Origin: Nitrosospira sp. 56-18
GTDB taxonomy: Bacteria; Pseudomonadota; Gammaproteobacteria; Burkholderiales; Nitrosomonadaceae
Length of the DNA: 64,000 nt
Direction of reading: 5' to 3'
Assembly: GCA_001899235.1 (NCBI GenBank)
Contig: MKVR01000014.1
Span: 198,059 to 262,058 of the forward strand
The first letter of the stretch is position 1. Every line of letters begins with the position of its first letter. Shown here piece after piece: positions 7,084-59,298 of the stretch. Under the pieces are notes generated by a model that was not told where the DNA came from, did not search any database, and saw nothing but the letters and a program-made list of their open reading frames with translations. The translations under genes were made by a program, and so were the position numbers.

Positions 7084-7374
7084 GGGAAGCGCTGAATAAA
7101 TCTCCGCTGGCGCGGCGGTGGCTTTGCGGGATGGGATGCGCGAAAGGCGACGACGCGAATGGTGCGGCCGCGCAGGGCGGAGCAGTGTCTTCCAGAGGAA
7201 GATGCGACCCCGTAGCGGGTTGTTGGCACCCCAACAGTACCTTGGCGCGCTCCGGGGAGCCACTGCGTTGCACTCCCTGGTATCGTAGTCCCGGCCACGA
7301 CCTGCGTCGCGCGCCTTATGATCATCCCGATTTTACCAGCAACGCGCTCGGCGAGTATTTATTCAGCGCTTCCC
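7084..7374. mobile_element. Element A: 291 bp non-autonomous transposon-like (MITE-like) element
   Basis: Both ends carry the same 18 bp in inverted orientation, GGGAAGCGCTGAATAAAT (7084-7101, with its reverse complement at 7357-7374), and weaker similarity continues inwards. Each end is flanked by TA (7082-7083 and 7375-7376), consistent with a TA target duplication. No transposase frame of useful length lies inside. The right flank continues directly into the end of repeat B (TAAATCCGG), and the left flank reads AACCTA, as if the element had landed in the TA of that repeat. The end sequence resembles those of IS5-type elements from memory; the parental IS is not in the window. Confidence 0.6.
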
Positions 7375-7472
7375 TAAATCCGGTAGCTGACCGCTCTTAG
7401 TTTAGAACCCTGATCCACAAAAATTTTCGCGATACTCGACATTCATCGGCGTGGTGAGTTCGCTATAGGATG
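7375..7472. repeat. Repeat B, copy B1 (left end split by element A, right end lost)
   Basis: Starts with TAAATCCGGTAGCTGACCGCTC, the family's terminal inverted repeat, and continues through the conserved core TGATCCACAAAAATTTTCGC and GTGAGTTCGCTATAGG. Compared with the copies at 17251 and 52728, the far terminal repeat is missing, and the bases expected before TAAATCC are found on the other side of element A (7077-7083). One base of the core is also missing. The remaining sequence to the next gene (7473-7568) shows nothing recognisable. Confidence 0.65.
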
Positions 7473-7568
7473 GATTGCGACTCGATTTTCACCTCGGCAT
7501 CAGCGAATCATCGGAACGATATGCCGCGTACACGATATATGCAATTATTCGATGCGGATCAGTGATCC

Positions 7569-17232: not shown

Positions 17233-17250
17233 GGCGAGCTCCGTAATGTG

Positions 17251-17370
17251 ATCCCAAATCCGGCGATTGACCACTCGTTTCCAGTTTGGAGCTATGATCC
17301 ACAAAAACTTTCCGCGGTACTCGACGTTCACCTAATATGGTGAGTTCGCTACAACTGCCGGATTCAGGAT
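17251..17370. repeat. Repeat B, copy B2 (120 bp, both ends present)
   Basis: Left end ATCCCAAATCCGGCGATTGA and right end CAACTGCCGGATTCAGGAT are imperfect inverted repeats. The core carries TATGATCCACAAAAACTTTC and TACTCGACGTTCACC, shared with copies at 7375, 52728 and 59173. It fills the space between glcF (stop ends at 17373) and coq7 (start at 17232). Confidence 0.8.
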
Positions 17371-17372
17371 AA

Positions 17373-18749
17373 TCAGATTATACTCATCTGGCGCGCTAAT
17401 AATGTAACCGGGTGCAACACTTCAACCTCGGAACCTGGCTCCTGAGCCCCCCGGCACAATCCAGCCGCGATATGCATGGCGCAGCCGATATTGGACGTAG
17501 CAAGATACCGTGCGCCGCTTGCCTCCACCGCAGCCAGCTTATCGTGGAGCAATGCCTGCGCCATTTCGGGCTGGTCGAGAAAGTAGGTCCCGGCAGCGCC
17601 GCAGCATTGATCATTTCCGCCAAGCGGCAAGATCCGGGCTTCCGGAATGCGCGTCAGCAACGCATAGGCATGGCGGGAAGCCCGAAGCACATTGCGCAGG
17701 CTGCATGGCTCATGCACAGCGATGGCATGCGGCAATGGGGCAAGCCTGACACCGTCCCATCCTTTTGCAGTCACCAAAAATTCGCTGATATCGAACACCT
17801 TTTCAACGAAACGGTCGTGCTGGCATTTGGATGCATCCATGGGAGATTCTGCGCTTCCCGATCGAGCGGGACCTGATGAGGCCGACGAGAACATGGCAGC
17901 ATATTCCGACAGTTGTGCGCCACAGCCCGATGCTGTGCTGATAATCGCACTGGGTCCCGGTTCATCGAAGGCTTCCATGTTCTGACGCGCCAGCTGCTCC
18001 GCCGTCCGCTTGTCGCCGCCGTGCTGATGCAGTGCGCCGCAACAGGTCTGCGTCGGGGGCACGCGGACGGTGTAGCCCAATCGATTGAGCACGAATATTG
18101 CGGCGTTGATCGTCTCAACGTCGGTCAGCCGGGCGACACAACCGAGGAATAAACCTACTTCCCCTCGGTACTTGCCTATCGAGGGATAAACGGGTCGCCA
18201 GGATCTGGCTCCGCCCTCTGGCCTCCCCACATGCGGCAACTGCGCCTCCAGCAGCGCAAACCGTGTCTCTCCCAGCGAGCTGGATTTGCGCAATACGTGC
18301 TGCAACCCGCTTTGCTGGTAAAAGCGTAGGAGCGGCCGCAATAAATCCATTCGTGAAGGCCGGGCAATCAATTCTTTCTCCACCCACCGCCTTAATCCTG
18401 ATTTTTTCCTCTCCGGCTGCTCCTTGCCGGGATCGAGGGGTACGGATTTCATCATTGCGCGGCTTCCATCCATCAATTGTCCAAAGCCTACATGGTTCGG
18501 ACAGACCGCTTCGCATGCGCGACATGTAAGACAGCGGTCCATATGCAACGCGAAGCGGGCATTCATTGGAATTCGGCCCTCGACAGCGCCGCTTATCAAT
18601 GCAATGCGGCCGCGTGGCGAATCGGCCTCGGATTGCGTCAACTTGTAGGTGGGGCAATGTGGAAGACAAAGGCCGCATGAAACACAGCGGTTGGCTTCTG
18701 CAAGCAGGGAATCGGCGGAAAAATCCGGCAGTGGATCAGAAGGCGTCAT
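17373..18749 (-). CDS. glcF: Glycolate oxidase iron-sulfur subunit
   Basis: Iron-sulfur subunit of membrane-associated glycolate dehydrogenase, which oxidises glycolate to glyoxylate. About 458 residues from the ATG at 18749. Two 4Fe-4S motifs CVSCGLCLPHCP (about 22-33) and CLTCRACEAVCP (about 73-84) are followed by two CCG-type domains with CCGALHQHGG and QCCGAAGTY. An earlier in-frame start at 18809 adds 20 unconserved residues. The flavin subunits GlcD and GlcE are not adjacent and must be elsewhere. In an autotroph this enzyme belongs to 2-phosphoglycolate salvage, and the aminotransferase at 34457 is the next step. The region 18750-19046 shows no gene. Confidence 0.92.
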   Translation of the reverse strand: MTPSDPLPDFSADSLLAEANRCVSCGLCLPHCPTYKLTQSEADSPRGRIALISGAVEGRIPMNARFALHMDRCLTCRACEAVCPNHVGFGQLMDGSRAMMKSVPLDPGKEQPERKKSGLRRWVEKELIARPSRMDLLRPLLRFYQQSGLQHVLRKSSSLGETRFALLEAQLPHVGRPEGGARSWRPVYPSIGKYRGEVGLFLGCVARLTDVETINAAIFVLNRLGYTVRVPPTQTCCGALHQHGGDKRTAEQLARQNMEAFDEPGPSAIISTASGCGAQLSEYAAMFSSASSGPARSGSAESPMDASKCQHDRFVEKVFDISEFLVTAKGWDGVRLAPLPHAIAVHEPCSLRNVLRASRHAYALLTRIPEARILPLGGNDQCCGAAGTYFLDQPEMAQALLHDKLAAVEASGARYLATSNIGCAMHIAAGLCRGAQEPGSEVEVLHPVTLLARQMSII

Positions 18750-22676: not shown

Positions 22677-23420
22677 ATGCAAGGGAAAGCGATACTCGTT
22701 ACGGGCGGCGCCAGGCGCTTGGGTGCGGCTATCTGCCGCGAATTGCATGCGCGCGGCGCCAGCCTGATCGTGCACTACCGAAGCTCCGGCCAGAATGCAC
22801 AGGCCCTGCAGGGGGAGCTTAACCGGCTTCGTCCCGGTTCGGTAGCCCTGGTCCACGCTGACCTGCTCGATATCAGCCGGCTGCCCGGCCTGATCGAAGA
22901 GTCGGCAAGCCATTTCGGAAAGCTCGACGCGCTTGTCAATAATGCTTCCAGCTTTTTCCCCACGCCCCTAGGGGAAATTACCGAAACAATATGGAATGAC
23001 CTTATCGGCAGCAACCTGAAGGCTCCCCTGTTTCTTTCTCAAGCCGCTGCGCCGCTGCTGAGGAAGCAGCAGGGCTGCATCGTGAATATCGTCGACATTC
23101 ATTCTGAGTGGCCGTTAAAAGGATATGCCGTATATACCGCCGGAAAGGGAGGTCTCGCAGCGCTTACGAGATCACTGGCGCTGGAACTGGGGCCGGACAT
23201 TCGTGTGAACGGCGTTTCTCCAGGCCCGATCCTGTGGCCTGAAGACGGCGAGTGGAAGGAGGAAGCAGCACGCCGGCATATCATCGAGAGGACTATCCTG
23301 AAACGCACGGGCGAACCCGAAGATATCGCCAAAACCGTGTTGTTCCTTATCGCCCATGCTCCCTATGTCACCGGACAGATCATCAATGTAGATGGCGGGC
23401 GCAGCATTAATTTATCCTAA
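22677..23420 (+). CDS. Pteridine reductase (short-chain dehydrogenase)
   Basis: 247-residue classical short-chain dehydrogenase. The NADPH-binding motif is TGGARRLGAA near residue 9, with an Arg-rich loop that is characteristic of pteridine reductase/FolM-type enzymes and differs from the usual TGxxxGxG. NNASSFFPTPLGEI, the catalytic Tyr/Lys in YAVYTAGKGGLAAL and NGVSPGPILWPE complete the pattern. It likely reduces dihydrobiopterin or dihydrofolate-type pterins. The ATG at 22677 has GAGGAG seven bases upstream. The stop codon TAA lies within the terminal inverted repeat of repeat B copy B6 (23414-23487). Confidence 0.88.
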   Translation: MQGKAILVTGGARRLGAAICRELHARGASLIVHYRSSGQNAQALQGELNRLRPGSVALVHADLLDISRLPGLIEESASHFGKLDALVNNASSFFPTPLGEITETIWNDLIGSNLKAPLFLSQAAAPLLRKQQGCIVNIVDIHSEWPLKGYAVYTAGKGGLAALTRSLALELGPDIRVNGVSPGPILWPEDGEWKEEAARRHIIERTILKRTGEPEDIAKTVLFLIAHAPYVTGQIINVDGGRSINLS

Positions 23421-23487
23421 ATTCCCCTTTGTAGCGAACTCTCTATGGATCATAGGAATAAAAAAATGGCAGACTGCTGGATTTGGA
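23414..23487. repeat. Repeat B, internally deleted copy B6
   Basis: Begins ATCCTAAATTCCCC and continues GTAGCGAACTCTCTAT, the mirror of the right half of other copies (GAGTTCGCTACAA...GGATTTAGGAT). It then jumps to GGATCATAGG and ends with CTGCTGGATTTGGAA, similar to the other terminal repeat. About 50 bp of the core are missing. The left part overlaps the last two codons and the stop of the pteridine reductase. Confidence 0.5.
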
Positions 23488-38262: not shown

Positions 38263-38280
38263 GAACAATCTCCTGAAAAT

Positions 38281-38356
38281 GAACGAGCGCCGTTAATACG
38301 ATACTCTCCCTGCCGAGCCTCGCGGGACGGTGCCCGTTGCAGCGCTCCTCGGCGAG
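38281..38356 (-). promoter_or_regulatory. SAH riboswitch in the ahcY leader
   Basis: On the minus strand the leader reads GCCGAGGAGCGCTGCAACGG, a variable loop, then GAGGCTCGGC and a downstream AACGGCGCTCGTT. This is the conserved core of the S-adenosylhomocysteine riboswitch: the P1 arms GCCGAG/CTCGGC, the invariant GAGCGCTGCAACGG and the pseudoknot partner GCGCTC. It ends about 18 bp before the ahcY start and covers its ribosome binding site region in proximity, consistent with translational or transcriptional activation by SAH, as established for this RNA class. Confidence 0.93.
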
Positions 38357-46210: not shown

Positions 46211-46231
46211 GATGCCGGATTCAGGTTGAGC
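46211..46231. repeat. Lone terminal repeat of family B (B5)
   Basis: GATGCCGGATTCAGGTTGAG matches the right end of copy B4 (GCGGGTTCAGGTTGAATT) and of B2. No core or second end is present. It lies between the convergent ends of hslU (46204) and the flavoprotein gene (46232). Confidence 0.45.
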
Positions 46232-52622: not shown

Positions 52623-52727
52623 GAAGCGTAACAGGGATCCGAATCCTTTCTCGGGCTTTGCACCCGTACGCTCTAAAACCACTCGCTTGCTTCACTTGCT
52701 TCCCTTACACGTGCGATATCCGGGATA

Positions 52728-52865
52728 ATCCTAAATCCGGCAGTTGGACGGGGTGAAGTGTGCGATAGCGAACTCGCTATACAGGTGAACGTCGAGTGCC
52801 GCGGAAAGTTTTTGTGGATCATGGCTCTAAACTGGACGTGAGCGGTCAACTGCCGGATTTAGGAT
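52728..52865. repeat. Repeat B, longest copy B3 (138 bp)
   Basis: Bounded by perfect 19 bp inverted ends, ATCCTAAATCCGGCAGTTG (52728-52746) and its inverse (52847-52865). Relative to B1, B2 and B4 it is in the opposite orientation. It contains a further palindrome ATAGCGAACTCGCTAT and the core GTGGATCATGGCTCTAAACT. The rsmB start codon is one base after its right end. The sequence 52623-52727 before it shows nothing else. Confidence 0.82.
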
Positions 52866-52866
52866 A

Positions 52867-54126
52867 ATGCGCCTCACCCCTGCCCACCTGGACATCGCAA
52901 CCGCTGCGCTTCGCGCCGTGCTTCCGCTCCAGCATCCCGCCGATTCCGCGCTAGGTGTTTTTTTTCGCCAGAACCCGCAATTGGGGGCTCAAGAACGGGC
53001 ATTCATAGGCCAAAATATATTTGGCATCCTGCGCCACCGCTTGTTCCTTGAATCCGTCGCAGAGATCCCTACGCCCCGTTCACTGCTGCTTGCTCATCTG
53101 GCCAGGTTCCAAGGCATCAATTTGCGCGAGCTGGCACCGCTTGTCAGCGAAGCGGAAGCAAAGTGGCTGGGATACGTCAAGGGATTGTCCCTGGAGACGC
53201 TATCTCCAGGAGTGCGGGCCGAATTTCCGGAATGGTTGATAAAAAAGCTCCGGGGCTTCATGCGAGAGGACGAGATACTCGATCTGGGACTATCCCTGCA
53301 ACGGCCAGCCCCTCTCGATCTGCGCGTCAACTCCCTTCTTGCCAGCCGAGATGAGATCATCGCTGCACTGGCCGGGGACGGGATCGAGGCTGCGCCCACC
53401 CCCTATTCACCTTTGGGCATACGGCTTGCAGGCAAGCCGGCGATAAACCGGCATCCGCTGTTTCTCGCGGGAAAGGCCGAGGTTCAGGATGAAGGCAGCC
53501 AACTGCTGGGCTACCTGCTCTCGCCCAGGCGCCGCGATATGGTGGTCGATTTCTGTGCTGGAGCAGGCGGCAAGACTCTCATGCTGGGAGCGCTGATGCG
53601 CTCCCATGGGCGGATCTACGCCTTCGATACATCGGACAAACGCCTGAAGAACCTCGGCCCCCGGCTCAAGCGCTCCGGCCTTTCCAACCTGTATCCCCAG
53701 CATATCGTCAATGAAAATGATATCAAGATCAAACGGCTGGCCGGAAAAATAGATCGGGTGCTGGTGGATGCACCCTGCAGCGGCATGGGAACCTTGCGCC
53801 GCAATCCTGATTTGAAATGGCGGCAATCACCCCAAAGCATCGAAGAACTCAAGCATAAACAGGCGGCGATTCTGTCATCCGCGGCAAATCTTCTTAAACC
53901 CGGGGGCAGGCTGGTCTATGCCACCTGCAGCTTCTTTCCGGAAGAAAACCAGAATATTGTGGAGCATTTTCTGAATGATCATTCCTCATTTACGCTGATG
54001 AATTGCGCGGATATTTTGCGGCAGCAAAAAATTCCACTGGACACCGGCATATTTCTGGAATTATCGCCCCGACTTCATGGAACGGACGGCTTCTTTGCCG
54101 CCGCAATGGAATTGAAGCAAAGTTAA
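52867..54126 (+). CDS. rsmB: RsmB-type 16S rRNA (cytosine-5) methyltransferase
   Basis: 419 residues. An N-terminal NusB-like region precedes a SAM-dependent RNA m5C methyltransferase core: VVDFCAGAGGKTLMLGALM (motif I), then DAPCSGMGTLRRNPDLKW with one catalytic Cys and YATCSFFPEENQNIV with the other. It is of the RsmB/Sun family, which modifies C967 in E. coli, although no functional fmt-def context is present to confirm orthology. The ATG at 52867 is one base from repeat B3. It ends in a 4 bp convergent overlap with gloA. Confidence 0.85.
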   Translation: MRLTPAHLDIATAALRAVLPLQHPADSALGVFFRQNPQLGAQERAFIGQNIFGILRHRLFLESVAEIPTPRSLLLAHLARFQGINLRELAPLVSEAEAKWLGYVKGLSLETLSPGVRAEFPEWLIKKLRGFMREDEILDLGLSLQRPAPLDLRVNSLLASRDEIIAALAGDGIEAAPTPYSPLGIRLAGKPAINRHPLFLAGKAEVQDEGSQLLGYLLSPRRRDMVVDFCAGAGGKTLMLGALMRSHGRIYAFDTSDKRLKNLGPRLKRSGLSNLYPQHIVNENDIKIKRLAGKIDRVLVDAPCSGMGTLRRNPDLKWRQSPQSIEELKHKQAAILSSAANLLKPGGRLVYATCSFFPEENQNIVEHFLNDHSSFTLMNCADILRQQKIPLDTGIFLELSPRLHGTDGFFAAAMELKQS

Positions 54127-58950: not shown

Positions 58951-59172
58951 ATTCAATCAACGATGAATTTGCAGGATGAGTGGAACGGAGCGCAGCCCAT
59001 CGAAATTATGGAACCGATGGGATCAATGATGAGGCAGGATGGATATTCTCATGAAAGTTCTGATGTTGCTTGTGCCTCCATACGCTACAAAAGCCGAATT
59101 CCATTCCGCTGCGCGGATATTGAAACGGGCCCACACAGCCTCCATCTTACGTTTATCATGATCCGTGAATTG
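58951..59172. other. Non-coding stretch with a short palindromic-type motif
   Basis: No supported gene. The segment GGATGAGTGGAACGGAGCGCAGCCCATC (58974-59001, quoted here only as motif halves GGATGAGTGG and GCAGCCCATC around AACGGAGC) resembles a dispersed motif often seen between genes of Betaproteobacteria. The rest shows nothing. Confidence 0.35.
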
Positions 59173-59289
59173 AACCTGAATCCGGCGGATGACCGCCCAT
59201 TTCCAGTTTAGAGCCATGATCCACAAAGACTTTACACGATATCCGACGTTCACCCATATGGTGGATTGGCTGCAAGGCGGGTTCAGGTT
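59173..59289. repeat. Repeat B, copy B4 (117 bp)
   Basis: Ends AACCTGAATCCGGCGG (left) and GGCGGGTTCAGGTT (right) form an imperfect inverted repeat. The core GAGCCATGATCCACAAAGAC and CCGACGTTCACCC are shared with the other copies. It ends 9 bp before the map start codon. Confidence 0.78.
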
Positions 59290-59298
59290 GAATTGATT

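Follow-up and report, generated by a model that had tools for sequence, protein, structure and literature searches.

Several small mobile elements of bacteria are on record. In one review, the Chunjie MITE of Geobacter uraniireducens is given a full length of 235 bp, with 37 further copies of 178-235 bp and 57 partial ones, and the Correia elements of Neisseria and RUP of the pneumococcus are listed as bacterial MITEs (PMC10969869). TIMEs, which are Tn3-derived and non-autonomous, measure 262 bp in their simplest form, with AT-rich targets and 5-6-bp duplications, and their source also covers ISPsp9, a divergent member of the IS1380 family (1718 bp, IR 21/18, 5-bp DR; PMC4133298 Table 1), and ISPa33a, with a DR of 4 (PMC4133298). 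To this company can be added repeat B, a family of small repeats in the genome of Nitrosospira sp. 56-18, approached here through one 64,000-nucleotide stretch of that genome (the window, by which we mean the whole stretch of DNA analysed).

Repeat B is a genuine family of MITEs, for which the searches turned up no name, and ordinary in kind: a new family of a well-known type of element. With good confidence, we read it as a MITE most likely moved in trans by a divergent IS1380-type DDE transposase. Its copies share terminal inverted repeats, duplicate their target, are small and have no transposase gene, and the family has both an autonomous relative and element-free sites, the features by which a MITE is recognised. 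Compared by description only, it resembles Chunjie in size, copy number, range of shortened copies and intergenic placement. With TIMEs it shares non-autonomy, small size, AT-rich targets and a 5-bp duplication; unlike TIMEs, which have 38-bp Tn3-type ends, it has ends of about 17 bp that start CCTARAA and match those of an IS1380-type IS. Tn3 ends start GGGG, and identity with a Tn3-derived TIME was rejected on this difference in the start of the ends. Correia elements and RUP are likewise small intergenic bacterial MITEs, with TA duplications and other ends, and repeat B differs from them by its 5-bp WTNAW duplication. The preliminary description of the window knew of no named family for the repeat, and this still stands: Rfam holds no family matching repeat B, and in the part of the MITE literature covered no title was found that names this family or links Nitrosospira to such MITEs. 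A repeat of which several Nitrosospira genomes carry tens of copies, and which recurs in related bacteria, can now be given a probable parent, a rule for its target and a minimal anatomy; its interest lies in its breadth of occurrence, its near-fixed full length, a hairpin common to it and the IS, and its placement at stop codons.

The preliminary description had proposed a dispersed element of 74-138 bp with shared inverted ends and a core, in several copies and both orientations. Dispersal and shared sequence are borne out by the four window matches to the core ATGATCCACAAAAACTTTC at up to three mismatches and the four to the end ATCCTAAATCCGGCAGTTG, each against a mean of 0.01 in shuffled windows. 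A profile made from 66 copies of the window's own genome, B2-B4 among them, picked out four window copies at E <= 1e-25 (about 52725-52868, 59170-59285, 17248-17373 and 7373-7490) and gave zero matches in the reversed window. The boundaries originally drawn around these copies have to be moved: the ends are CCT...AGG, B2, B3 and B4 are shorter than claimed, and the 5-bp target flanks lie outside them. The proposed size holds for the window copies, but these are internally deleted forms of an element of about 236 bp, whose full length is about 235-237 bp.

B2, B3 and B4 are two-ended, B1 is without its right end, B6 is degenerate, and one lone end completes the set; the names of neighbouring genes (coq7, glcF, rsmB, map, hslU) are readings of the translations, made without a family search. 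B2, a short form of 116 bp on the plus strand (17253..17368) identified by profile match and flank reading, has on one side a coq7-like gene (minus strand, starting upstream) and on the other the stop codon of a minus-strand glcF-like gene; its target flanks, GTGAT at 17248..17252 on the left and ATAAT at 17369..17373 on the right, agree at 3/5 positions. B3, an internally deleted copy of 134 bp on the minus strand (52730..52863; profile E 3.7e-35) with both inverted ends full, sits immediately upstream of an rsmB-like gene with its ATG at 52867, between perfect ATAAT duplications at 52725..52729 and 52864..52868, the latter running two bases into the rsmB-like start codon. B4 (59175..59287, plus strand, profile match), a short form of 113 bp, is separated by 11 bp from the likely start of the map-like (methionine aminopeptidase) gene downstream, again within a perfect duplication, TTGAA at 59170..59174 and 59288..59292. 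Of B1 (7373..7490, plus strand, profile E 9.5e-26) the left end, leader and hairpin region are present and the right end is gone, so that the claimed copy survives as a left part. B6 (23416..23486, minus strand), a further-deleted copy, was missed by the profile but is readable by eye as an intact right end plus the fragments ATGATCCA and GAGTTCGCTACA; its CCTAA end (23416-23420) contains the TAA stop codon of an upstream oxidoreductase-like gene. The lone right end, CCGGATTCAGG followed by TTGAG (46215..46225, plus strand), is also legible by eye though too short for significance alone, and the region 46211-46231, with this right end plus TTGA(G), lies just past the stop codon of an hslU-like gene.

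The window's genome (3.29 Mb, 54 contigs) contains 75 core matches at up to three mismatches, 38 forward and 37 reverse, as the claim of both orientations would have it, and 155 end matches at up to two mismatches, against none for either control (the reversed pattern in the case of the core). Thirty copies were read with their flanks and ten full-length ones were aligned. The full-length unit, about 235-237 bp, has the inverted ends CCTAAATCCGGCAGTTG (CCTAGAAACCTCAGTTG in other genera), about 17 bp long and starting CCTARAA in the copies read; between them lie a leader, in which a TCACC-N5-GGTGA hairpin stands about 76 nt in from the left end, and an extended imperfect palindrome; no transposase is carried. 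Of 79 candidate elements, ten with more than six end mismatches were removed, leaving 69 copies, a few of which are doubtful as end pairs (for example those 73 and 404 bp long). Lengths are mostly about 113 bp or about 235 bp, with 64/69 spanning 105-262 bp, and 27 of the 62 classified copies are the short form, from which most of the palindrome is absent. Missing from this class is what lies between two direct repeats, GCGGATT and CCGGATT, and its ~113-bp members look like deletions from one to the other. A single origin of the short form is not supported, the left-end tree, itself largely unresolved, requiring 18 changes against a shuffled mean of 20.3, with 96/500 shuffles as low. The 35 full-length copies of this genome have a median pair identity of 80%, the best pair reaching 90%; the family is therefore old in this Nitrosospira and probably immobile or silent there now. 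The preliminary description would have given up its reading had a genome-wide search returned only the window's copies, with no shared boundaries; instead, boundaries are common to the copies and copies are spread genome-wide.

Insertion has left a clear imprint on the flanks. An exact 5-bp duplication surrounds 26/69 copies (shuffled right flanks: mean 3.7, maximum 12), compared with 0 at 6 bp, 2 at 4 bp, 1 at 3 bp and 20 at 2 bp, the last being what AT-rich ATNAT-type flanks give. At least four of the five flank positions agree in 46/69 copies, where shuffles average 18.3 and reach 32 at most, and the duplicated target has the consensus WTNAW. A 3-bp TNA duplication of the IS1031 type was rejected, flank positions 1 and 5 agreeing too (48/69 and 51/69). 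Orthologous spacers lacking the element were found at two window loci. At B2, 15/22 relatives align unbroken over the junction, any extra sequence amounting to no more than about 31 bases, and with a shorter query 9/15 loci align across it, the relatives' spacer being short and diverged beyond reading of the exact target; of the other seven relatives, one (G021) has its own short copy there in the opposite orientation, and the target of that copy overlaps the same glcF-like stop codon. At B3 the alignment is unbroken in G004 and G020, and G011, G014 and G021 have a short copy at a different position of the spacer. With relatives' spacers empty or differently occupied (the separate copies in the B2 and B3 gene gaps of other Nitrosospira are L391, at G021 C1 851600-851880, and L388-L390), these sites are lineage-specific and the same gene gaps have been used repeatedly. 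Elsewhere, three miniature copies in G068 have differing flanks and are identical at 120/120 bases, and are thus a sign of recent movement in that genome, which also contains fragments of the transposase described below.

The family extends to other Betaproteobacteria. A full-length unit was matched in 22/41 genomes drawn from the organism itself, its genus, its family and one representative per family elsewhere in the order, and the ancestral-end pattern in 54/300 genomes and 31/135 genera of the order, its reversed control giving one match each in six of the 300. The exact pattern of one conserved inner stretch, run against an 84,980-species collection, returned 46 stretches, of which 35 belong to Nitrosospira or Nitrosovibrio (many from one MAG) and the remaining 11 include Sulfuricella, Sulfurimicrobium, Gallionellaceae, Hydrogenophilales, Propionivibrio and a contig binned as a Methylococcaceae MAG. 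Of 22 full elements taken from these hits and from relatives of the organism, 15 are 236 bp long and 21 fall within 234-237 bp, a uniformity overstated by their having been chosen as full-length matches (3/25 chosen loci gave none). End pairs in the 300 genomes also occur at other spacings: those matched by eye, among the ancestral-end pairs listed, lie from about 86 to 406 bp apart, none of them far enough apart to hold a transposase gene. A long form of about 390 bp in Nitrosovibrio and other same-genus genomes (L070-L080, L086) has an additional GC-rich, hairpin-rich mid segment of about 150 bp, and in G093 (L228-L231, L233, L234) an end and a TCACC/GGTGA hairpin of the same type enclose unrelated interiors rich in CCACAGAGGCACAGAGA-type repeats, so interiors appear exchangeable. 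One copy lies at 881-1010 of locus L090, in a 25.7-kb IMG/VR contig (phage or host DNA). Nucleotide searches of plasmids and phages gave no match, a diverged Polaromonas miniature being reached through the transposase of the IS instead.

Of what the preliminary description had called for, a profile was built, and relatives' sites without the element and a full-length IS with the same ends were found, the IS in other genomes. The first lead was a weak IS1380 match in G053 (L302, cut by a contig end), which starts just inside the end CCTAGAAGCCTCATTTG and has the hairpin GTCACC-CGATG-GGTGAG at its start codon. Relatives of this protein occur in 18/300 genomes of the order, and they lead to elements of about 1.6 kb that have the ends and hairpin of repeat B as well as 5-bp duplications, and are its probable parent. 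In G092 the IS is 1639 bp long, and the outer 16 bases of its right end are those of the Nitrosospira miniature end; in G058 this identity covers the outer 17, whereas the right end of L334 matches over 7 bases only, which tells against the parentage. Exact duplications flank three copies of the G092 IS (L332 ATCAC/ATCAC, L335 ATGAA/ATGAA, L337 TTTAT/TTTAT), the first departing from WTNAW at its last base, and at L310 and L337 (G092 C1 about 2750962-2753590) one IS copy apparently sits inside the leader of another at TTTAT. On the plasmid of Polaromonas sp. P1-6 (CP087967.1) an IS of 1630 bp, which encodes a transposase of 510 residues and is flanked on either side by TTAAA, lies 357 bp from a 234-bp miniature with the ends CCTAGAAACAGCAGTTG and CCTAGAAACGGCAGTTG, flanks agreeing at 4/5 positions and an interior 67% identical to the by-eye consensus. 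With IS and miniature together on one plasmid, a direct test of mobilisation in trans is feasible.

The hairpin ties miniature and IS together. TCACC-N5-GGTGA lies 76 nt from the CCT in 9/9 IS loci that have a left end and the exact hairpin (L308, L313, L320, L326, L332, L334, L335, L337 and L338, four of them copies of the one G092 IS). Where the left end was found at L314 and L323, the right half of the hairpin and the start codon are present and the left half is imperfect; L309 has the hairpin and an unconvincing left end. Of the 22 diverse miniatures, 16 have the hairpin at 74-77 nt (up to two mismatches allowed), one has it at 100 nt through an insertion, and in five none was found. Its loop holds the transposase start codon in the IS and varies in the miniature, from which we infer that the hairpin, rather than coding sequence, is conserved. 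The ~1.6-kb IS1380-type elements would supply a DDE transposase that recognises the ends they share with repeat B; this enzyme would cut and insert the miniature in trans, duplicating a 5-bp WTNAW target, and the hairpin may serve it as a second recognition site. Mobilisation by this transposase and the second site are both inferred, whereas the ends, the duplications, the dispersal, the element-free orthologous spacers and the anatomy common to miniature and IS are direct observations.

Members of the IS1380 family make 4-5-bp duplications and have ends starting CC. The 5-bp duplications and CC-starting ends of the probable parent fit this rule, although 3/6 tabulated copies are imperfect: TTTAT/TTTAA (G092), TTAAT/TTAAA (G058) and TTCAT/TTAAT (G068). 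Like members such as ISPsp9, it combines the PF13701 domain and CC ends with a 5-bp duplication, and it is about 1.6 kb long. Its transposase matches PF13701 (DDE_Tnp_1_4) at 46.9 and 86.5 bits against a cut-off of 34.7; its best match, the NCBIfam IS1380 equivalog NF033539, is reached at 95 bits (for the protein cut by a contig end) and 155 bits, under the cut-off of 180, and we therefore term it IS1380-like. The transposase used as a query of PDB at E <= 0.1 gave no match. Other IS1380 elements of the order, as read, have ends such as TTAACCC with TTAA/CTAA flanks and are not of the repeat B type. The IS has no counterpart of the miniature's interior palindrome, which counts against the parentage, and the miniature is thus not a simple internal deletion of it. 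The transposase is in pieces with a stop in G058, and the pieces in G068 are short or stop-bearing; these breaks, together with the two IS loci with an imperfect hairpin, slightly reduce our confidence in the IS1380-type explanation. The window's own genome gave no match to a parent-type transposase; two low-scoring PF13701 fragments with stops on contig C50 fall below the cut-off, and no repeat B ends were found near them. Across the genus, remnants or distant homologues of the transposase occur in 3/23 genomes.

Other searches for a partner covered IS1380 and IS1634 genes more widely. The IS1380 genes of 41 relatives (21 loci) were rejected as parents, none being bounded by the ends; near one IS1380 locus (L185) there is a separate miniature-like end pair. 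Among 30 loci examined with the IS1380 model in the 300 genomes, L302 has a good left end, and at L298 (G098) a right end overlaps the 3' end of the frame. An IS1634-model parent was likewise set aside, 30 loci yielding no convincing end pair and one (L265) a single exact short WTNAWCCTAGA without a partner. Ends occur in 8/18 genomes with the parent-type transposase against 46/282 without (p 0.007), an association weakened by the ability of the IS itself to match the end pattern. Co-occurrence with the IS1380 model (23/54 vs 38/246) is accompanied by a positive IS1634 control (24/54 vs 53/246), and because this control associates too we give genome co-occurrence little weight.

Repeat B copies lie at stop codons more often than intergenic control sites do. 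With each site modelled without its element, and 64 copies counted (5/69 being too close to the end of a locus), the target TNA doubles as the stop codon of a frame 100 codons or longer in 14/64 copies against 21/329 intergenic WTNAW sites of the same loci (p 3.5e-4), and for frames of at least 150 codons in 11/64 against 22/592 (p 1.1e-4). The gene reads into the left end of the element in 13 of the 14 stop-codon copies (p 0.002), or 10 of 11 at the longer threshold (p 0.012). A cruder control gives 16/64 against 53/1067, split 13 to 3 between left and right sides; no enrichment is seen at start codons (30/64 copies, 488/1067 controls). Because the duplication restores the stop codon, such insertions are cheap. 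The preferred orientation could reflect either targeting or survival, and, together with the excess, it offers a testable account of how an element may spread in compact genomes without breaking genes.

The preliminary description had offered a miniature transposon and a structured intergenic repeat as alternatives. The former is upheld by precise shared ends, the 5-bp duplication, spacers lacking the element, both orientations and transposase-bearing relatives, and the question becomes which enzyme moved it. IS5/IS1031-type enzymes have TNA targets, and it is improbable, in our judgement, that one of these, or an unsampled enzyme with the same end specificity, mobilised the miniature: the TNA core of the target and the 23 genomes of the genus without an intact partner would suit it, but the duplication is of 5 bp (26/69) rather than 3 bp (1/69), IS1380-type elements match in ends, target and hairpin position, and the 30 IS1634-model loci produced no convincing pair of ends. 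REP/REPIN sequences moved by a RAYT (HUH/Y1) transposase would also be palindromic, intergenic, numerous and found in both orientations, as repeat B is; the presence of 5-bp target duplications, where to our knowledge RAYT/IS200-type movement makes none, together with the size of the element and the finding of a probable DDE parent, makes this reading scarcely credible.

The structured-repeat alternative was right to the extent that a long imperfect palindrome makes up the full-length form, predicted to fold strongly (57/1208 cells unpaired), but it is the MITE reading that the evidence supports. Retention of the element, whatever its origin, as a functional structure (a terminator, an mRNA stabiliser or gene-end punctuation) would agree with the 234-237 bp of 21/22 diverse full copies, a sample biased by its choice as full-length, with both-side changes in 12/55 predicted pairs, a raw count made without a covariation control, and with the oriented enrichment at stop codons. 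Copies within the genome are nevertheless divergent (median pair identity 80%), 27/62 classified copies are short with most of the palindrome absent, the B2 insertion is missing from most relatives and Rfam returns no match, so we hold such a role to be unlikely and claim no RNA function. The stated lack of a coding frame needs amending, since the full-length form has a stop-free frame in 22/22 diverse copies (two indel-shifted) and 16/17 alignable copies of the own genome, the longest being about 65 codons in the consensus and reading SLEWNDHSASLRLALHPKNRTLHPVQL in several full-length copies. That it encodes a small functional peptide is very doubtful: minor-allele cells are flat across codon positions (70/76/83), the reverse frame is open in 20/22, and coding selection is not significant, with 2 stops observed against 4.6 expected (p 0.15; L088 left out) and 3 against 6.3 in own copies (p 0.12), the own codon test leaving out 8/25 rows with too many mismatches. 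The frame is probably a by-product and a spurious small gene, likely to be annotated as small hypothetical proteins.

A bolder and decidedly tentative picture can also be drawn, in which the 236-bp unit would be a stable non-autonomous lineage and not a decaying deletion derivative, its fixed length and palindrome conserved across several families of Betaproteobacteria; the hairpin 76 nt in would be a second transposase signal, and insertion would be aimed at stop codons, with copies capping genes harmlessly and perhaps usefully. Among the sequences covered by the target TNA are the stop codons TAA and TGA, both restored by the duplication. Apart from repeat B, the window contains an SAH riboswitch at 38278-38356 on the minus strand, with an Rfam score of 64.1 bits against a gathering score of 37.
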